Assembly: GCF_000359745.1 (NCBI RefSeq)
Contig: NZ_AQHN01000055.1
Span: 124,001-188,000, forward strand
Source of the DNA: Rhizobium freirei PRF 81
GTDB taxonomy: Bacteria > Pseudomonadota > Alphaproteobacteria > Rhizobiales > Rhizobiaceae
Direction: 5' to 3'
DNA length: 64,000 nt
Shown one piece after another: positions 55,564 to 64,000 of this stretch. The notes below the pieces were generated by a model. The model did not search any database. It was not told the origin of the DNA and saw only the letters and a program-made list of their open reading frames with translations. Made by a program: the position numbers and the translations under genes. Position 1 is the stretch's first letter, and the number at the start of each line of letters is the position of its first letter.

Positions 55564-55593
55564 AAGCCGCCGGGCTCACCCGGCGGCTTTTTT
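55564..55593. terminator. Terminator after the L,D-transpeptidase gene
   Basis: AAGCCGCCGGG (55564-55574), a 4-base loop and CCCGGCGGCTT (55579-55589) are followed by T residues to 55593. It separates this gene from the convergent alcohol dehydrogenase gene. Confidence 0.9.
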
Positions 55594-55657: not shown

Positions 55658-56806
55658 TCAGAAGCAGTCGCGGAAAAGAGCCTTCGTGTTTTCCAGCGTC
55701 ATCGGCACCGGATTGCCACCGGCGCTCGGGTCTTCGATTGCCATGGCAGAAAGCTCGTCGATGCGGTCGGGCGTGATGCCCATGGCCGATAGGCTTTCCG
55801 GAACGCCGAGTTCAGCACGCAGCTGCAGCACGTAGTCATAGAAGCCGTCGAAGCCGCCGGCGATGCCGAGGTAGGCTGCCGCGCGGGCGATCTTCTCCTC
55901 GATGGCCTTGCGGTTGAAGCGCAGGACCGCCGGCATGACAACGGCATTGGTCATGCCATGATGCGTGTTGTAGACAGCGCCGATCGGGTGTGACAGCGCA
56001 TGGATGGCACCAAGGCCCTTCTGGAAGGCGACCGCACCCATCGCGGCAGCGCTCATCATGTTGGCGCGAGCTTCGAGATCCGTTCCCTCGCGATAGGCCC
56101 GCGGCAGGAATTCCTTGACCAGACGCATGCCTTCCAGCGCGATGCCGGCCGACATCGGATGGTAGAACGGCGAGGAATAGGCTTCCAGGCAATGGGCAAA
56201 CGCGTCCATGCCCGTACCCGCCGTGATGACCTTCGGCATGCCGACAGTCAGTTCCGGATCGGCGATGACGACGCCCGGCAGGAACTTCGGGTGGAAGATG
56301 ATCTTCTTCACATGCGTCGCGGAATTGGTGATAACGCTGGCGCGGCCGACTTCAGAACCGGTGCCTGCCGTAGTCGGCACGGCGACGATCGGTGCGATCC
56401 CTTCGAGATTGGCGCGGGTCCACCAGTCACCAATATCTTCGAAATCCCAAACCGGCCGGGTCTGGCCAGCCATGAAGGCGACGCACTTGCCGAGATCGAG
56501 GCCGGAGCCGCCGCCGAAGGCGACGACGCCGTCGTGACCGCCATCCTTGAATGCCTTCACGCCGGCTTCAAGATTCTTCTCGTTCGGGTTCGGATCGACA
56601 TCGGCAAAGATTGCTCGACCGAGACCTGCATCCTCCAGAATGTCGAGGGCCGTCTTGGTGATCGCCATAGACGCAAGTCCCCGGTCAGTGACCAGGAGAG
56701 GCTTCTTCATGCCCAGGCTCTTGCAGGCGTCCGCGAGTTCCTTGATACGGCCGCGGCCGAGCTTGAAGGCGTTCGGATAGCTCCAGTTGGCTGAGATGTT
56801 GCTCAT
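55658..56806 (-). CDS. Iron-containing alcohol dehydrogenase
   Basis: The 382-residue protein is a group III (Fe) alcohol dehydrogenase. The nucleotide motif is AFGGGSGLDLGK (GGGS 98-101), followed by VPTTAGTGSEVGRASVI. Metal ligands are D201 and H205 in TAGTGMDAFAHCLEAY, H269/H273 in GAIHALSHPIGA and H282/H283 in NTHHGMTNAV. It would oxidise a primary alcohol with NAD(P)+ or reduce an aldehyde. Its ATG overlaps the ALDH stop in ATGA, so the two steps are translationally coupled. The substrate may be a gamma-glutamylated amino alcohol (see findings); this is inference. Confidence 0.93.
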   Translation of the reverse strand: MSNISANWSYPNAFKLGRGRIKELADACKSLGMKKPLLVTDRGLASMAITKTALDILEDAGLGRAIFADVDPNPNEKNLEAGVKAFKDGGHDGVVAFGGGSGLDLGKCVAFMAGQTRPVWDFEDIGDWWTRANLEGIAPIVAVPTTAGTGSEVGRASVITNSATHVKKIIFHPKFLPGVVIADPELTVGMPKVITAGTGMDAFAHCLEAYSSPFYHPMSAGIALEGMRLVKEFLPRAYREGTDLEARANMMSAAAMGAVAFQKGLGAIHALSHPIGAVYNTHHGMTNAVVMPAVLRFNRKAIEEKIARAAAYLGIAGGFDGFYDYVLQLRAELGVPESLSAMGITPDRIDELSAMAIEDPSAGGNPVPMTLENTKALFRDCF

Positions 56807-58188
56807 GCTGTTACTTTCTTCAGGTGATAGGATTTCGGGCGCGTCAGATTGTGGAAGCCGATGACCGACAGCGAGCCGCCGCGGCCGGTTTCCTTGACGC
56901 CGGTCCAGCACAGTGCCGGATCGAGATAATCGGCGCGGTTCATGAAGACGGTGCCGGTTTCGATCTCGCGGCCGATCCGCGAGGCGCGCTCGACATCCTT
57001 CGTCCAGAGCGAAGCGGTCAGACCGTAGGGGCTGTCGTTCATGAGTTCCAGCGCCTCAGCATCGCTCTTCACCTTCATGATGCCGACGGCCGGGCCGAAG
57101 GTCTCTTCGCGCATGAAGGCCATGGAGTGATCGACATTGACGAGGATCTGCGGCGCAAGATAGGCGCCGCCATCATCGGCCGGGAACAGTTTGGGATCGA
57201 CCAGTGCTTTGGCGCCCTTGGCGACAGCATCGGCGATCTGCTCGCGCACGACCTTGGCAAAGCGCTTGTGCGCCATGGGCCCAAGCGACGTCTCAGGATC
57301 CAGCGGATTGCCGAGCTTGTAGTTCGAAACCCATGCGACGGATTTCTCGACGAAAGCGTCGTACAGGGATTCATGCACGTAGATGCGCTCGATACCGCAG
57401 CAGCACTGCCCGGAATTGAAGGTGGCGCCATCCATCAGCGTGTCGACGGCGGCGTCGAGATCTGCGTCCTCCATGACATAGCCCGGATCCTTGCCGCCGA
57501 GCTCCAGCCCGAGGCTGGTAAAGGTGCCGGCAGCGGCACGCTCGATCGACCGGCCGCCTTCGACAGAACCGGTGAAATTGACGAAGTTGAAGCTGCCGGC
57601 GGCAATCAGCGCCGATGTCGTATCGTGGTCAAGGAAGACATTCTGGAAGACGTCGGCAGGAACACCCGCTTCGACAAAAGCCTGAACGAGCCGCTCGCCG
57701 ACGAGGAGCGTCTGGCTTGCGTGTTTGAGAATGACGGTATTGCCGGCCATTAGGGCCGGAGCAACCGTGTTGATCGCCGTCATATAAGGATAGTTCCAGG
57801 GAGCGATGACGAAGACGACGCCATGCGGTTCGCGCTCGATACGGCGGGCAAAATTGGCGCTGTCTTCCACGACCAGCGGCGCCATTGCATCGGCAGCGAT
57901 CGAGGCGACATAGTTCGAGCGCTCGTTGAAGCCGCGATATTCGCCGCCATACTTGATCGGGCGCCCCATCTGCCAGGCAAGCTCCGGCACGACTACATCG
58001 GCCATCTCGTTGAGCCGGGCGACACCCTTCAGCACGAGCTGGACACGATCTTCCAATGGGCGGCGCGCCCAATCCTTCTGCGCCTTGCGGGCGCGGGCCA
58101 CGACTTCCTTGGCGGCTTCCAGCGACAGCGCCGGACGCTCGGCATAAACCTCTCCGTTTACCGGTGAGACGCATTTGATCATCGTCAT
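56803..58188 (-). CDS. Aldehyde dehydrogenase
   Basis: The 461-residue NAD(P)+-dependent ALDH has the oxyanion Asn in APWNYPYM (N132), the general base E229 in LGLELGGKDPGY and the nucleophile region NSGQCCCGIERIYV, where C263 aligns with the catalytic cysteine and C262 and C264 flank it. ETFGPAVGIMKV near 390 and the tail GRGGSLSVIGFHNLTRPKSYHLKK are family features. ATG 58188 (MTMIKCVSPVNGE) was chosen. The stop overlaps the Fe-ADH start by four bases. It lies 153 bases downstream of the GS-like gene. Confidence 0.93.
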   Translation of the reverse strand: MTMIKCVSPVNGEVYAERPALSLEAAKEVVARARKAQKDWARRPLEDRVQLVLKGVARLNEMADVVVPELAWQMGRPIKYGGEYRGFNERSNYVASIAADAMAPLVVEDSANFARRIEREPHGVVFVIAPWNYPYMTAINTVAPALMAGNTVILKHASQTLLVGERLVQAFVEAGVPADVFQNVFLDHDTTSALIAAGSFNFVNFTGSVEGGRSIERAAAGTFTSLGLELGGKDPGYVMEDADLDAAVDTLMDGATFNSGQCCCGIERIYVHESLYDAFVEKSVAWVSNYKLGNPLDPETSLGPMAHKRFAKVVREQIADAVAKGAKALVDPKLFPADDGGAYLAPQILVNVDHSMAFMREETFGPAVGIMKVKSDAEALELMNDSPYGLTASLWTKDVERASRIGREIETGTVFMNRADYLDPALCWTGVKETGRGGSLSVIGFHNLTRPKSYHLKKVTA

Positions 58189-58341
58189 GATCGAATTCCT
58201 GTTTTCTTGGTCATCAAATTGATTGCCGGATGTTGCACAACCTGTGGCCGCATTCAAAGCGGAAATATCAGGCGAGCGGGCCATCCTGACGCCCTGCCCG
58301 ATCATGAAATGGAAATCGGACAGGGACAGCTTGCAAAAGCC

Positions 58342-59712
58342 TTACGCTCTTTCGAATCCGCGCGCCACTTCCCAATCGGTGATGCGACGATCATACTCTT
58401 CCTGCTCCCATTCGGCAGCGCGGGTATAGTGATCGATCACCTCGTCGCCGAAAGCCGCACGCAGCATTTTCGAATTGGTGAGGGCTTCGGTCGCGCCACG
58501 CAGCGTGCGCGGAATTTCTCGAACCTCGCGTGCGCCATAGGCGTCGCCGACAAAGGGCGCTTCCAGTTCGAGCTTATTCTCAATGCCGTCAATGCCTGCA
58601 GCGATCAGCGCCGCAAAGGCAAGATAGGGATTGAGGTCGGAGCCGCCGACGCGGCACTCGATACGGATGCTCTTCGTGTCAGCACCGCACAGGCGATAGC
58701 CGGCCGTGCGGTTGTCGGTGCTCCAGATCGCCTTGGTGGGAGCAAAAGTGCCAGCCACGAAGCGCTTGTAGGAATTGATATAAGGCGCCAGGAAATAGGT
58801 GATTTCGCTGGCATGCGTCAGAAGGCCGGCAACGTAGTGCCTCATCATCGGCGTCATGCCATGTTCTTTTTCCTTGTCGAAGAACAGCGGCGTCTTGCCA
58901 TCGGCGCTCCAGAGCGACTGATGGATATGGGATGAACTGCCGGCAGCGCTGTAATTCCATTTCGCCAGGAAGGTAATGGCCTTGCCCTTCGACCAGGCGA
59001 TCTCCTTGCAGCCGTTCTTGATGATGGCATGACGGTCGGCCATGGTCAGCGCGTCGGCGTAGCGGACGTTGATTTCCTCCTGGCCTGCAGAGGCCTCGCC
59101 CTTGGAGTTTTCGACCGGGATATCGGCGCCCTGCAAACCCTTGCGGATCGCGCGCATCACATCTTCTTCCTTGGTGGTTTGGAAGATGTGGTAATCCTCG
59201 TTGTATCCGCTGACGAGATTGAGGTTGCGATAGCCGGCTTCGCGGGCACTGTCGTAGCTCTGATCGAACAGAAAGAATTCGAGCTCCGAAGCCATATAGG
59301 CCTTCATGCCCATCGCCTCGAGGCGCTTGACCTGCTTCTTGAGGATAGCCCGCGGCGAATGCGCGACTTCCTCATGCGTGTGATGGTCGAGCACGTCGCA
59401 GAGGACCAGCGCCGTGCCTTCCAGCCACGGAATGCGGCGCAGCGTGGCAAGATCAGGCTTCATGGTATAGTCGCCATAGCCCTTCTCCCAGCTTGTCGAC
59501 TTGTAACCGGAGACGGTTTCCATCTCGATGTCGGTCGCCTGTAGATAGTTGCAGCTATGCGTTTCCTTCCAGGCGCTCTCGACGAAGAATTCTGCCTGGA
59601 AACGTTTGCCCATCAGGCGGCCCTGCATGTCCACCTGGCATGCCAGAACCGTATCGATGCGCCCTTCGGCCACATCCTTCCTGAGGTCGTCGAACGTATA
59701 GCTGCTGCTCAT
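58342..59712 (-). CDS. Glutamine-synthetase family ligase (gamma-glutamyl-amine synthetase type)
   Basis: The 456-residue protein has the glutamine synthetase fold, with metal ligands E143/E145 in MASELEFF, E206 and E213 in ENSKGEASAGQEEINV, and H262 in GSSSHIHQSLW. ATP/substrate motifs are NRTAGYRLCGADTKSIRIE and RVGGSDLNPYLAFAA. It lacks the adenylylation-tyrosine region expected of housekeeping GlnA and is embedded with catabolic genes, so it is likely a PuuA/IpuC/GlnA4-like enzyme joining glutamate to an amine or amino alcohol. This is inferred from family and context. It follows the permease by 129 bases. Confidence 0.9.
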   Translation of the reverse strand: MSSSYTFDDLRKDVAEGRIDTVLACQVDMQGRLMGKRFQAEFFVESAWKETHSCNYLQATDIEMETVSGYKSTSWEKGYGDYTMKPDLATLRRIPWLEGTALVLCDVLDHHTHEEVAHSPRAILKKQVKRLEAMGMKAYMASELEFFLFDQSYDSAREAGYRNLNLVSGYNEDYHIFQTTKEEDVMRAIRKGLQGADIPVENSKGEASAGQEEINVRYADALTMADRHAIIKNGCKEIAWSKGKAITFLAKWNYSAAGSSSHIHQSLWSADGKTPLFFDKEKEHGMTPMMRHYVAGLLTHASEITYFLAPYINSYKRFVAGTFAPTKAIWSTDNRTAGYRLCGADTKSIRIECRVGGSDLNPYLAFAALIAAGIDGIENKLELEAPFVGDAYGAREVREIPRTLRGATEALTNSKMLRAAFGDEVIDHYTRAAEWEQEEYDRRITDWEVARGFERA

Positions 59713-59797
59713 AATTTGGTCCGCCTGAAAAAATAACAGAGTGATCGGCCAGCGGCATTATCGTGGGCATTGCCCGAAGCCGCATGTCAGGTTGGAA

Positions 59798-59817
59798 GGG
59801 GCCGCAGCAACGGCCCC
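59798..59817 (-). terminator. Hairpin after the APC permease gene
   Basis: GGGGCCG pairs with CGGCCCC around 59798-59817, with a 6-base loop. On the minus strand only a short TTCC follows, so it may attenuate rather than end transcription towards the GS-like gene. Confidence 0.4.
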
Positions 59818-59841
59818 CGCCGGATTAGGGATGTGTGAGAA

Positions 59842-61413
59842 TCACACCTCGCCGACGGCTCTTTCGGCAGCGGCAATATCGGCCTGCCGCTTGGCGATCA
59901 CGTCGCCGATCGGTGGTCCCTGGAAGCGGCGATTTTCGAAGGCGAACCAAACGATCGCGGTCAGAACCAGGAAACCGATGGTGATGTAGAGCGCCCATTC
60001 GTTCGGCGGCTGCACGCCGATGATGAAGATGATCGCCATGGCGATGACCACCAGAACGGAGACCAGCTTATAGGTGCCGACGCCCATGTTCCACGGCCCC
60101 ATTTTCGGCCATTTCGCAGTTCCGATCGCCTTGATGCCGAGGACGATCGGCACCGTGAAGGAGAGGAAAAGGAAGATGACGGTGCACGACACGACGATGG
60201 TGTAGGCCGAAGAGCCGGCGATCGTGACGAGCGAAGCGCCCCAGACGAACAGGACTGAAAGAACCGCGCCCGTCCAGATGGCGATGGAAGGCGTGCGGAA
60301 TTTGGGGCTGACGCTGGCGAGCGATTTCGAGAACGGCAGGCCGCCGTCGCGCGAGAAAGCATAGATCATGCGCGATGCGGATGTGACGGTCGCAAGGCCA
60401 CACAGCAGCTGCGAGATGAAGATCGCAACATAGAGGATATTGGCGACGACAGGGTTGGTGATGCTGTTGATCGTCCAGAAGAAGACGTTCCAGCCCTGTT
60501 TCGATGCTTCATTCATGTCCGGGATGGCCAGCAGGAAGGCCAGCAGCATGATGTAGCCGAACAATGACGACCACCAGACCGAGGAGACCATGCCGCGCGG
60601 CACCGAGCTGGATGCCTTGACGGTCTCTTCGGACGTATGCGCCGAAGCGTCATATCCCGTGATCGTGTAGATCGGCAGCAGCAGGCCGAGAGCAAAGACG
60701 TACCAGATATTGTCCATCTTCGGCCAAACCGATGCATCACCCTCCGGCGTGCCGGAGTAGTTGGTGAATGTCCAGATGCGGCTGATGTCCCAGCTCTTGA
60801 CGCCGATCAGGCAGACGATGGTCAGCGCGATCGCTGCGGCAAAGATCAGATAGCCGGACATATCGGTCAGCTTGGCCGTCAGCTTGATGCCGAAATGATT
60901 GATCAGCGCCTGCAGGCCGGTGATGATAGCAACGAAGATGATCTGGTTCGCAAAACCGGCCGAAGTAGTGGTGTCGACGGCAATACCGAACCACGGGGCG
61001 ATGGAGCCGCTGAAAAAGCCCCAGGTGCCGACATTGATCGCACCAAGCACGGTGATGAGGCCAAGAAGATTGAGCCAAGCCGTCAGCCAGCCGGTGAAGC
61101 GGTTGCCGAGGATCGAGCCCCAGTGATAGAGGCCGCCGGCCGTTGGATAGGCCGAGGAAATCTGTGCCATCGAGAGCGCGAAAACACCCGAGATCAGGCA
61201 GCCGAGCGGCCAGCCGATACCGATTGCAGCACCGCCAGCGCCAGATGTCGCCTGTGCGAGCGAATTGATACCGCCGGATAGAATGCAGATGATGGAGAAG
61301 GAAATGGCGAAATTCGAGAATGAACTCATGCGCCGTTCCAGTTCCTGAGCATAGCCCATGGAGTGCAGGATATGAACATCCTGCTTTTTGTCTAACTCTG
61401 TGTAATCAGACAT
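59842..61413 (-). CDS. APC-superfamily amino acid / amine permease
   Basis: The 523-residue inner-membrane protein has about 12 predicted helices. It starts MSDYTELDKKQDVHILHSMG, then YAQELERRMSSFSNFAISFS and SGAGGAAIGIGWPLGCLISGV, the opening of the ACT/GABA-permease group. YPTAGGLYHWGSILGNR and ITGYDASAHTSEETVKASSSVPRG are group signatures. GGGGGA precedes ATG 61413. Its place between an amidohydrolase and a GS-like ligase suggests it imports the amine to be glutamylated. The substrate is not readable from sequence. Confidence 0.92.
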   Translation of the reverse strand: MSDYTELDKKQDVHILHSMGYAQELERRMSSFSNFAISFSIICILSGGINSLAQATSGAGGAAIGIGWPLGCLISGVFALSMAQISSAYPTAGGLYHWGSILGNRFTGWLTAWLNLLGLITVLGAINVGTWGFFSGSIAPWFGIAVDTTTSAGFANQIIFVAIITGLQALINHFGIKLTAKLTDMSGYLIFAAAIALTIVCLIGVKSWDISRIWTFTNYSGTPEGDASVWPKMDNIWYVFALGLLLPIYTITGYDASAHTSEETVKASSSVPRGMVSSVWWSSLFGYIMLLAFLLAIPDMNEASKQGWNVFFWTINSITNPVVANILYVAIFISQLLCGLATVTSASRMIYAFSRDGGLPFSKSLASVSPKFRTPSIAIWTGAVLSVLFVWGASLVTIAGSSAYTIVVSCTVIFLFLSFTVPIVLGIKAIGTAKWPKMGPWNMGVGTYKLVSVLVVIAMAIIFIIGVQPPNEWALYITIGFLVLTAIVWFAFENRRFQGPPIGDVIAKRQADIAAAERAVGEV

Positions 61414-61539
61414 GTCATTCCCCCTTAAGCCCGGTCGTCCGCGGGATTGCGGAGAACCATGTGTCACATGAGCCGCCGGCTTTTTGCCGTGCGGCTCGAT
61501 CGCAGTTGAACTGCTCCCCGGGGTCTTTTTCTTTTATGC

Positions 61540-62307
61540 TCAGGCTTCCAGACTGCTCTGGAGAAGCCTTGTCAGATAGTCAGCCATGACCCCTTGGCTA
61601 ACGTCATCTCCGATGAGATCGTTGCGGATCTCGATCATTACGTTGTGCAGACCGTTGGCGATCCCATGCAGCTTCAGCGTATGGGTGACACCATCTTCAG
61701 GCCCGTAAGGCTGATTGCGTTCGGTCCGATAGAATGGTGTCTGCGCTGCCCCGTCCAGCATGCGATCGGCCAGCCAATGGTCGTCGTCATGCAGAATGCC
61801 GAGCTCCACTGCCCTCGGCTTGCCGTTATAGATCGGCGTGAAACTGTGCATCGTCACGACCACGGTTTTTTGTCCGCGTGTCGCTCTCTCCTTCAGCAGA
61901 GCGCGGATGCGGTCATGAAACGGTATGTAAAGCCCCTCGGTGCGTGCCCGCCGATCCGCATCGCCCAGGCGCTGATTGCCGGGGATCGTATAGATCTCGC
62001 TCGTTTCCGGCATCGCTCCGGCGCTTTCCGGCGGCCGGTTGCAGTCATAAATCAGCCGGGAGAAGCGCTGGTAGATCAAGGTCGCATCGAGACTTGCCGA
62101 GATTTTGCTTGCAACCGCGAGTGCACCGGGATCCCAGGCGATATGGCTGGAAAGAGCTTCAGCGGAAAGCCCAAGATCACCAAAACGTTCGGGCAAAGCA
62201 CGGGAAGCATGCTCGCAGATGATGAAAACCGCGCTGCTGCCGTCTGGTCTCTCGACCGCGACGCAATCGCCGTCCGCCTTGGTCAAAATGCCTTGCTGTG
62301 CAAGCAT
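61540..62307 (-). CDS. N-formylglutamate amidohydrolase-like protein
   Basis: The 255-residue protein is of the N-formylglutamate amidohydrolase (HutG-type II) family. FIICEHASRALPERFGDLGL carries the metal-binding EH motif, and SSHIAWDPGALAVASKIS and RLIYDCNRPPES are typical. VVTMHSFTPIYNGKPRAVELGIL provides the second His motif, and NVMIEIRNDLI the end. True histidine-utilisation genes (hutH, hutU, hutI) are absent here. In this setting it may hydrolyse a gamma-glutamyl or N-acyl-glutamate amide made by the GS-like pathway. It lies 126 bases upstream of the permease and is divergent from the RpiR gene. Confidence 0.88.
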   Translation of the reverse strand: MLAQQGILTKADGDCVAVERPDGSSAVFIICEHASRALPERFGDLGLSAEALSSHIAWDPGALAVASKISASLDATLIYQRFSRLIYDCNRPPESAGAMPETSEIYTIPGNQRLGDADRRARTEGLYIPFHDRIRALLKERATRGQKTVVVTMHSFTPIYNGKPRAVELGILHDDDHWLADRMLDGAAQTPFYRTERNQPYGPEDGVTHTLKLHGIANGLHNVMIEIRNDLIGDDVSQGVMADYLTRLLQSSLEA

Positions 62308-62348
62308 CCGGGGCGCCCCATTGCCGATTAATAAAATCTTTATAAGAA

Positions 62349-62429
62349 AAGAATTCTTCAGCTTTTGGCCGCTGTCAACCGGAAACTGAAATTATTTCTT
62401 CATTTGTGACATTGACTCGAAATGTGACA
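62349..62429. promoter_or_regulatory. Dyads and direct repeats in the RpiR/amidohydrolase promoter region
   Basis: The 180-base divergent spacer contains a perfect AAGAATTCTT (62349-62358), a GAAAT-T-ATTTC dyad (62388-62398) and two TGTGACA copies with 18-base period (62405-62411 and 62423-62429). CTGTCACA, the reverse complement of TGTGACAG, occurs again at 63414-63421 before the solute-binding protein gene. These are candidate sites for the RpiR regulator. Confidence 0.45.
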
Positions 62430-62487: not shown

Positions 62488-63360
62488 TTGAGCAATGCGT
62501 CAAAGACAGTTTCTGACGTGATCAATGCCCGCTTCGACACGCTGACGCGGGCCGAAAAGCAGCTGGCTAAGAGCTTGCTGGACAACTATCCCGTTTCCGG
62601 GCTGGGCAGCATCACGACAGTCGCCGAGAATGCGCGCGTTTCGACGCCGACCGTCGCCCGAATGGTGCAGAAGCTCGGTTATAAGGGCTATCCCGACTTT
62701 CAGTCTCATCTCCATCAGGAGGTCGAGGCGACTATCTCCAACCCGCTGACAAAGCATGATCGTTGGGCGTCGAATGCGCCGGGCACGCATATTCTCAATC
62801 GCTTCGCAGATGCTATCATGAACAATCTGCGCCAAACGCTCGCTGATATCGACGCCGCGACATTCGATAGTGTGGCGGCCTTGCTGTCCGAGCGCAAACG
62901 CGGGCTCTATTTCGTCGGTGGCCGCATCACGGGCGCGCTTGCCGAATATTTCTTCACCCATATGCAGGTGATCCGCCCGAACACCACGCTGCTTTCCTCC
63001 AATTCCAGCACCTGGCCGCAATACGTCCTGAACATGAATCCGGGCGACCTGCTCGTGATCTTCGACATCCGACGCTACGAGCAGGAAATGGTCAATCTGG
63101 CCGCCGCCGCCCGTCGTCGCGGCGCGGAAATCATCGTCTTTACCGATCAATGGGCAACACCGGCTGCCAAGCACGCCAAGCACATCTTCCGCGTGCAAAT
63201 CGAGGCTCCGTCCGCCTGGGATTCATCGGTTGTCACACTTTTCATCGTCGAGGCCCTGATCGAAGCCGTGCAGAGCTTGACCTGGGACGAGACAAGCGAA
63301 CGCATGAAAACGCTAGAAGGTCTTTTCGAGCAGACAAAATTGTTCCGCAAACTGAGCTAG
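62488..63360 (+). CDS. MurR/RpiR-family regulator with SIS domain
   Basis: The 290-residue regulator has an N-terminal HTH_6 domain (about 1-77; LTRAEKQLAKSLLDNYPVSG, then NARVSTPTVARMVQKLGYKG) and a C-terminal SIS domain (about 120-260; RGLYFVGGRITGALAEYFFTH, GDLLVIFDIRRYEQEMVNL, AEIIVFTDQW). SIS domains usually sense phosphosugars, but RpiR proteins also govern amino acid and polyol operons. The start is TTG at 62488, with GGGGAG upstream and no near in-frame ATG. It lies between the minus-strand catabolic genes and the solute-binding protein gene, and it may control both. Confidence 0.92.
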   Translation: MSNASKTVSDVINARFDTLTRAEKQLAKSLLDNYPVSGLGSITTVAENARVSTPTVARMVQKLGYKGYPDFQSHLHQEVEATISNPLTKHDRWASNAPGTHILNRFADAIMNNLRQTLADIDAATFDSVAALLSERKRGLYFVGGRITGALAEYFFTHMQVIRPNTTLLSSNSSTWPQYVLNMNPGDLLVIFDIRRYEQEMVNLAAAARRRGAEIIVFTDQWATPAAKHAKHIFRVQIEAPSAWDSSVVTLFIVEALIEAVQSLTWDETSERMKTLEGLFEQTKLFRKLS

Positions 63361-63548: not shown

Positions 63549-64000
63549 GTGATCTCGAAAATTCACCGTCTTCTGACCATCTCTACCGCGATGCTCGTCG
63601 CTTCGTCCGCCATCGCTGCCGCAGAGCCGAGCGCCGATCTGATCGCTGCCGCCAAGAAGGAAGGCACGCTGACCACGATCGCCCTGCCCCACAACTGGTG
63701 CGGTTATGGCGATCTGATCGCCGCGTTCAAGGCAAAGTACGGTATCGAAGTCAACGAGCTGAACCCGGATGCGGGTTCGGGCGATGAGGTCGAAGCAATC
63801 CGCGCCAACAAGGGCAACACCGGCCCTCAGGCTCCGGACGTGATCGACGTCGGCCTCTCCTTCGGCCCGACCGCCAAGAAGGAAGGCCTGCTGCAGCCTT
63901 ACAAGGTTTCCACCTGGGATTCGATCCCGGACAGCGCCAAGGATGCCGAAGGCTTCTGGTACGGCGACTACTACGGCGTTCTCTCCTTCGTCACCAACAA
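63549..64000 (+). CDS. ABC transporter substrate-binding protein (3' end cut by window edge)
   Basis: The visible 150 codons encode a signal peptide (ISKIHRLLTISTAMLVASSAIAAAEP) and the N-lobe of a periplasmic binding protein. DLIAAAKKEGTLTTIALP and NWCGYGDLIAAFKAKYG resemble the PotD/AfuA-like group that binds polyamines, iron(III) or aminophosphonates. The start is GTG at 63549, seven bases after AGGAGG. An ATG at 63544 opens only a two-codon frame (ATG CAG TGA) across the start. The permease and ATPase genes must lie beyond the window. Confidence 0.88.
   Translation, partial: MISKIHRLLTISTAMLVASSAIAAAEPSADLIAAAKKEGTLTTIALPHNWCGYGDLIAAFKAKYGIEVNELNPDAGSGDEVEAIRANKGNTGPQAPDVIDVGLSFGPTAKKEGLLQPYKVSTWDSIPDSAKDAEGFWYGDYYGVLSFVTN

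Follow-up and report, generated by a model that had tools for sequence, protein, structure and literature searches.

A probable ethanolamine gamma-glutamylation operon with an exchangeable importer gene in Rhizobium freirei PRF 81

The DNA analysed here, referred to as the window, is a stretch of 64,000 nucleotides from Rhizobium freirei PRF 81 (positions 124001-188000 of contig NZ_AQHN01000055.1, our contig C57, in a genome of 7.08 Mb). Near one end it carries five genes which, judged from sequence comparisons, very probably constitute the rhizobial counterpart of a described operon type, the eto-type operon for ethanolamine gamma-glutamylation. The pathway is already known, also in Rhizobiaceae, and the window adds a member with a different importer. 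What is new here is mainly that the importer gene has repeatedly been swapped for unrelated ones while the enzymes stay constant; a literature search of titles and abstract openings gave nothing on the cluster in Rhizobium or Sinorhizobium, nor on importer exchange.

A preliminary description of the window had listed five same-strand genes, and all five were indeed found on the minus strand at 55658-62307, each in the expected Pfam family. They encode an N-formylglutamate amidohydrolase (FGase)-family protein of 255 aa (61540-62307; PF05013, 146.9 bits), an APC-superfamily permease of 523 aa (59842-61413; AA_permease_2, PF13520, 170.2 bits), a glutamine synthetase (GS)-like ligase of 456 aa (58342-59712; Gln-synt_C, PF00120, 341 bits), an aldehyde dehydrogenase (ALDH) of 461 aa (56803-58188; Aldedh, PF00171, 410.1 bits) and an iron-type alcohol dehydrogenase (Fe-ADH) of 382 aa (55658-56806; PF00465, 159.7 bits, and C-terminal PF25137, 144.8 bits). 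The start positions of the permease (61413), ALDH (58188) and Fe-ADH (56806) genes were corrected by eye. The ATGA overlap said to couple the last two genes can be read directly at 56806-56803, and the remaining three gaps within the set measure 126, 129 and 153 bp. In the proposed pathway the APC permease would import ethanolamine, and the GS-like enzyme, a putative ethanolamine gamma-glutamylase, would couple the amine of ethanolamine to the gamma-carboxyl group of glutamate at the expense of ATP. The Fe-ADH, as a gamma-glutamylethanolamide dehydrogenase, would convert the alcohol to the aldehyde, the ALDH would carry the gamma-glutamyl aldehyde on to gamma-glutamylglycine, and the FGase-family protein, a proposed gamma-glutamylglycine amidohydrolase (GGAH-like), would split this into glycine and glutamate, the latter being recycled. 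We infer both the substrate, ethanolamine, and the order of the reactions for this organism.

The ligase is one of seven GS-family matches in the R. freirei genome and is 98% identical to the GS-like proteins of Rhizobium miluonense and Rhizobium sp. ASV20. Its closest solved structures are 11zs (E 4e-203), which has 12 chains, and 5dm3 (E 2.3e-192), which we take to be Csal_0679; the next best match has E 1.4e-50. The phylogeny proposed in the preliminary description as a check sets it apart from the GlnA and PuuA groups, and from IpuC too. In this tree of 64 rows, which has several long branches whose placement the program called unsure, the window protein falls in a supported clade of 31 together with the ligases of annotated Paracoccus (TRAP) and Ruegeria clusters, and outside that clade stand E. 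coli GlnA with the GlnA of R. freirei, PuuA with two further R. freirei paralogues, and two annotated IpuC proteins (one relative, L007, was dropped, L006 is a 268-aa fragment and L068 contains an unknown residue). Aligned with E. coli GlnA, whose numbering is used, the protein keeps the metal ligands E129, E131, E212, E220, H269 and E357, as well as H271, the arginines examined and the tyrosine at the adenylylation position. The metal-, ATP- and glutamate-binding residues are retained except N264, which is likewise replaced in PuuA and IpuC. GlnA D50, Y179, N264 and E327 correspond to S68, E172, A257 and F323, the comparisons at D50 and Y179 being weaker because the local alignment at both positions is unchecked. 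For the ethanolamine ligase GlnA4, PMC6529630 gives a Phe at the E327 position and the loss of Y179, and calls D50 not conserved.

The hydrolase does not belong with HutG (TIGR02017, 15.7 bits against a cut-off of 278.75); the absence of hut genes stated in the preliminary description was not searched for across the genome. Its closest solved structure is 2odf, 'hypothetical protein Atu2144' (E 4e-93), which the FGase of the cluster in Agrobacterium sp. AGB01 (L083) matches at E 2.1e-115. Among the residues that 98% or more of 131 rows share are H33, H55, D59, R84, D88, N90, R91, H154, R165 and E226. At the same level of conservation are C263, C264 and E229 of the ALDH (142 rows) and D201, H205, H269 and H283 of the Fe-ADH (145 rows). 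Cleavage of gamma-glutamylglycine has been proposed for SCO1615 in PMC6529630, and for GGAH it is in the passages considered of PMC10132767 likewise a proposal, the support given there being induction; by analogy, the window hydrolase would cleave the same compound. A second FGase-like gene of the R. freirei genome (C69, 96704-98535; stretches L260 and L262), 36% identical, adjoins a divergent GS-like gene on the same strand, and the two are possibly a second glutamylation pair for another amine.

The gene order is strongly conserved. The best 80 of 587 confirmed GS relatives, here called the close loci, carry the titles of Rhizobiaceae genera or of 'Rhizobiales bacterium', and 79 of them keep the order and orientation ABC binding protein and permease, RpiR regulator, FGase, GS, ALDH and ADH, the exception (L009) being a contig stub of 4.9 kb; the arrangement is therefore not due to chance. 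As in an eto-type operon, the FGase gene stands at the head with an RpiR gene beside it, and the ALDH and ADH genes lie directly downstream of the ligase gene. Wider samples gave a GS match in 86 of 121 family genomes (E <= 1e-150, at least 60% identity) and, at E <= 1e-90, in 72 of 150 genomes from the order and 16 of 142 from the class; of 75 class and order stretches around GS relatives, 47 have a recognised FGase gene.

A feature of an eto-type operon that the locus lacks is the EtoVWX TRAP importer, the position of which is occupied by the APC permease gene. Since the importer varies among relatives with the same enzymes, we do not treat EtoVWX as defining the operon type. The slot holds an APC gene in 73, a TRAP importer in four and an ethanolamine-permease-like gene in three of the close loci; among 132 rows (the window and 131 loci in which an FGase gene precedes GS) the corresponding numbers are 80, 36 and 6, with nothing recognised in 10. 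The TRAP binding protein of L025, the one tested, matches 4UAB over 330 residues (E 2.4e-161), a structure of Csal_0678 of C. salexigens in complex with ethanolamine according to PMC12410723. Of the three ethanolamine-permease-like genes in the close loci (L068, L083 and L049), the first two were scanned, and their best family is the TIGR00908 ethanolamine permease, with scores of 374 and 364 bits that fall slightly short of the cut-off (381.75). On a Thermomicrobium plasmid a GS relative (51%) lies two genes ahead of an annotated eat ethanolamine permease. That a single enzyme set is found with different importers, two of which have ethanolamine-linked homologues, is the best in-silico argument for the substrate.

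The importer type has changed repeatedly over the history of the ligase. On a quick GS tree with Shimodaira-Hasegawa-like approximate likelihood ratio (SH-aLRT) support only, for which the 132 rows were thinned to 81 and an uncounted number of loci whose GS frame is not divisible by three were left out, 18 changes between the four slot states are required, against a mean of 36.8 after shuffling; the states are clustered, but they do not come near to having arisen once each. Counting well-supported branches alone, TRAP needs at least 7 changes and APC at least 5; clustering of the ethanolamine-permease label is not significant (72 of 500 shuffles were as low). When the window is compared in 100-bp windows with two near relatives (L012 and L022), identity is 74-95% before and within roughly the first 350 bp of the APC gene, 53-83% over the rest of that gene and most of the gap that follows it, and 90-92% inside GS, a profile indicating that the APC gene itself is exchanged among near relatives of the window. 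The best NCBIfam model for the window permease is TIGR00907, with 205.1 bits against a cut-off of 598.3, and its position in the slot is what suggests that it carries ethanolamine. It is tempting to go further and to envisage a fixed enzyme module with a hot-swap importer slot, in which an uncharacterised Rhizobiaceae APC family replaced TRAP as the ethanolamine importer, was in turn exchanged through recombination in close relatives, and works alongside a dedicated ABC importer that takes up ethanolamine or an ethanolamine-yielding head-group compound. This combined scheme is tentative, and we hold it to be rather more doubtful than the assignment of the operon.

It is improbable, though conceivable, that another small amino alcohol or monoamine (3-aminopropanol, alaninol or serinol) is the physiological substrate of the APC version, handled by the same chemistry. 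The slot permease falls outside the ethanolamine-permease family and is the sole part without an ethanolamine-linked homologue, and the Fe-ADH and ALDH match many broad families below cut-off, all of which would suit such a substrate. However, the window GS is 85-89% identical to the GS of seven relatives with a TRAP or ethanolamine-permease-like slot gene, and the slot types interleave on the GS tree. A polyamine pathway of the Puu type, which shares a GS-like ligase, a permease and an ALDH with the window, is very unlikely. As the preliminary description had remarked for the amine oxidase, a family scan of the five genes found no PuuB-type oxidase, and no PuuD-type hydrolase either; the window GS lies outside the PuuA group and scores 205.6 bits with NF045547 (GGputSyn) against a cut-off of 650; and on contig C13 of the same genome (L258:6595-9342) a separate GS gene adjoins a gene resembling, by eye, that of a PuuB-type FAD oxidase, perhaps the polyamine pathway of this organism. 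The plain family names of the parts would also fit an assimilatory or regulatory GS beside the N-formylglutamate step of histidine degradation with unrelated alcohol and aldehyde dehydrogenases, but with the ammonia-site residues of the GS replaced, a hydrolase that is not HutG, and genes that stay together well beyond Rhizobiaceae, this can practically be discarded.

A different line of evidence comes from the ammonia-lyase EutB (PF06751), found in 33 of the 150 order genomes. The preliminary description had stated that eut genes are absent; this holds for EutB, which has no match in the whole R. freirei genome, the other eut genes not having been searched for. With matches outside complete operons included in the GS count, three of the 150 genomes have both GS and EutB (about 16 expected), 69 GS only, 30 EutB only and 48 neither (Fisher one-sided p 1.3e-7); by genus (89) the numbers are 5, 44, 15 and 25 (p 0.0023). 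Within genus g208, GS occurs in one genome and EutB in two, and within g171 in one and three, respectively. The two systems tend to substitute for one another, as would be expected of two routes for a single substrate, but the signal is partly phylogenetic.

On the product side, plasmids of Aminobacter aminovorans, Aminobacter sp. NyZ550 and Paracoccus pantotrophus (L252, L264 and L265) carry an RpiR gene and then FGase-GS-ALDH-ADH with no importer within the set, directly followed by bhc genes; these three copies are the listed plasmid matches at 79-81% identity. In P. pantotrophus an insertion element separates RpiR and FGase, and the annotated bhc genes are bhcB, C and D only. Since the bhc genes serve the beta-hydroxyaspartate route for glyoxylate/glycine carbon, their position 3' of the plasmid copies fits glycine as the product. 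The plasmids in question are mobilizable or conjugative, and the pAA03 copy is also flanked by a flavin-dependent oxidoreductase set.

The proposal of the preliminary description that the genes serve gamma-glutamylation of ethanolamine is thus supported by the separate GS clade, the replaced ammonia-site residues, the ethanolamine-linked slot importers of relatives and the gene-order match with Phaeobacter. Some points weigh against it. The window APC permease gave no match to the TIGR00908 ethanolamine permease at E <= 0.001, and the 64-row tree was computed without GlnA4 (SCO1613). The gaps of 126-153 bp leave room for internal promoters. By family (52), the GS and EutB counts of 7, 27, 6 and 12 are not significant (p 0.25), and after shuffling of EutB within families the signal is modest (observed 3, mean 5.8, p 0.019). 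Of the 75 class and order stretches, 28 had no recognised FGase gene beside the GS relative, a contig end truncating some of these 28, so that the GS gene is also found in other contexts.

The surroundings of the operon add a divergent RpiR gene, a pair of operator-like palindromes and a linked ABC importer, none of which is in the preliminary description. The MurR/RpiR-family regulator gene (62488-63360, plus strand, TTG start; HTH_6, PF01418, and SIS, PF01380) lies 180 bp from the FGase gene on the opposite strand, and a homologue takes the same place in 79 of the 80 close loci. Template scoring of the divergent gap gave two 16-bp palindromes 42 bp apart, site 1 at 62387-62402 (TGAAGAAATAATTTCA on the minus strand) and site 2 at 62345-62360 (TGAAGAATTCTTTTCT on the minus strand); a pair with the same spacing is present in 9 of 11 loci listed with their sites. 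A 16-bp palindrome agreeing with TGAAAAGATCTTTTCA at 12/16 positions or more stands in each of the 79 FGase-RpiR gaps of the close loci, against 5 of 200 shuffles; since the close loci supplied the template, this count is not independent of it. Among 44 additional divergent gaps, including those of two close relatives (L158 and L218), 17 reach 12/16 against 1 of 220 shuffles; in all these counts related sequences share sites by descent. The palindromes are good candidates for RpiR operators on this pattern, and RpiR probably represses the operon through the two sites in the divergent promoter region. Across the R. freirei genome the pattern occurs 41 times forward and 42 times in reverse, against 22 and 23 for a reversed control; at just about twice the control, single regulon matches mean little. 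Promoter hexamers near the palindromes were sighted by eye, and as the promoter scan lists none there they are not claimed. At the other end, a terminator-like hairpin follows the ADH gene (55564-55589, minus strand; 11 pairs, 9 of them G-C, with a T-rich tail). The terminator scan lists no minus-strand site within the three intergenic gaps, and its 5 sites in the whole stretch are no commoner than the 7.0 in shuffles, so that only stem strength speaks for the hairpin.

Beyond the regulator, the genes for an ABC importer (binding protein, permeases and ATPase) begin at about 63549 on the plus strand and run past the window edge at 64000. The binding protein is linked on the RpiR side in 79 of the 80 close loci, and an ATPase gene was also seen in 75 of the 79 that keep the order; in the other four (L025, L029, L048 and L061) the longer TRAP module has probably shifted it beyond the fetched stretch. 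In L196, L198 and L201, which represent three genomes from a different genus within the family, the binding protein gene lies downstream of ADH on the same strand, and two linked arrangements in Rhizobiaceae suggest a functional tie of the importer to the operon. This tie is weakened by unlinked homologues in the order genomes, by the lack of palindromes ahead of the binding protein and by relatives of the binding protein that give no lead to a ligand. A homologue occurs in 29 of the 150 order genomes, linked to GS in 5 (all of the own family) and unlinked in 24, of which 18 carry GS on a different contig or at a distance of 60 kb or more and 6 lack a GS match; the importer was accordingly dropped as a regular part of the pathway. 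The gap between RpiR and the binding protein has no such palindrome (best 9-11/16 in 78 of 79 gaps and 13 in one, within the shuffle range), so that co-regulation of the ABC genes is not supported. As to the ligand, the binding protein falls far short of the models for 2-aminoethylphosphonate binding, with a best score of 80.4 bits against a cut-off of 310, and its predicted structure (mean pLDDT 75.9) is closest to 5t1p, a putative binding protein of C. jejuni. In 20 stretches around unlinked relatives, surveyed for frames of at least 150 aa filtered by third-position GC, no non-ABC neighbour recurs in more than two. Just past the ABC genes (L008:6288-6791 and L218:484-957) lie an annotated lumazine-synthase gene in S. 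meliloti and, in R. freirei, a frame like lumazine synthase, named by eye.

Some GS relatives were seen in other settings. A GS 78-79% identical to that of the window (L159:2540-10178) adjoins an elongation factor G paralogue and a 955-aa frame combining ABC ATPase, short-chain dehydrogenase, dienelactone hydrolase and SnoaL-like domains, with no FGase, ALDH or ADH recognised nearby. In Paraburkholderia sabiae (L151:1883-9362) a GS with 61% identity has genes for a 2-aminoethylphosphonate transaminase and for a member of the gamma-glutamyl-GABA hydrolase family in its vicinity, in a stretch with no ALDH or ADH annotation, and in Streptomyces sp. NBC_01455 (L248:5959-10291) a related GS and a permease adjoin ATP-grasp genes (tgmABC) for a ribosomally synthesised and post-translationally modified peptide. 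On contig C86 of R. freirei itself (L259:2304-9821), a GS-like ligase adjoins, by eye, a sarcosine-oxidase-like protein and glutamate-synthase-like subunits, presumably resembling the N-methylglutamate (methylamine) set.

As one of the main membrane lipids has ethanolamine for its head group, soil and root-associated bacteria should meet this compound often. The assignment would give a specific role to genes that carry, for example in S. meliloti, just the annotations 'glutamine synthetase family protein' and 'N-formylglutamate amidohydrolase'. Importer exchange with constant enzymes and the EutB anticorrelation are testable patterns, and they single out an APC family, so far uncharacterised, as a candidate for ethanolamine import.

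The closest described system is the operon of Phaeobacter sp. MED193, given in PMC10132767 as RpiR, GGAH, EtoV, EtoW, EtoX, ETAGA, GAADDH and GETADH, five proteins of which rise on phosphorylethanolamine; EtoX is stated there to bind ethanolamine with a Kd of 7.9 uM, and not phosphorylethanolamine, phosphocholine or glycerol phosphates. The order of regulator, hydrolase, importer, ligase, ALDH and ADH is alike in the window, which has an APC permease where MED193 has the EtoVWX TRAP importer and adds the linked ABC importer. This comparison is one of gene order, the sequence stand-in being the annotated cluster of Paracoccus PD1222, which follows MED193 gene by gene with RpiR divergent and has a GS 60.5% identical to that of the window. 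PMC10132767, crediting Vetting 2015 (Biochemistry 54:909), states the pathway for A. tumefaciens C58, a member of Rhizobiaceae, and PMC9397018 sets out an identical series of steps for S. coelicolor and C. salexigens; 5dm3 (GS) and 2odf, Atu2144 (FGase) are the close homologues in the C. salexigens and A. tumefaciens pathway. With the GlnA4 pathway of S. coelicolor, as outlined in PMC6529630, the window has in common the ethanolamine glutamylation, an ALDH and an FGase-family hydrolase proposed for the last step, whereas S. coelicolor uses a short-chain dehydrogenase and another regulator in place of Fe-ADH and RpiR. The Puu and Ipu pathways share a GS-family amine ligase and an ALDH with the window, but have PuuB oxidase or P450 genes and amidotransferase-type hydrolases where the window has Fe-ADH and FGase. 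The Eut system, with its EutBC ammonia-lyase, would act on the same substrate by different enzymes.

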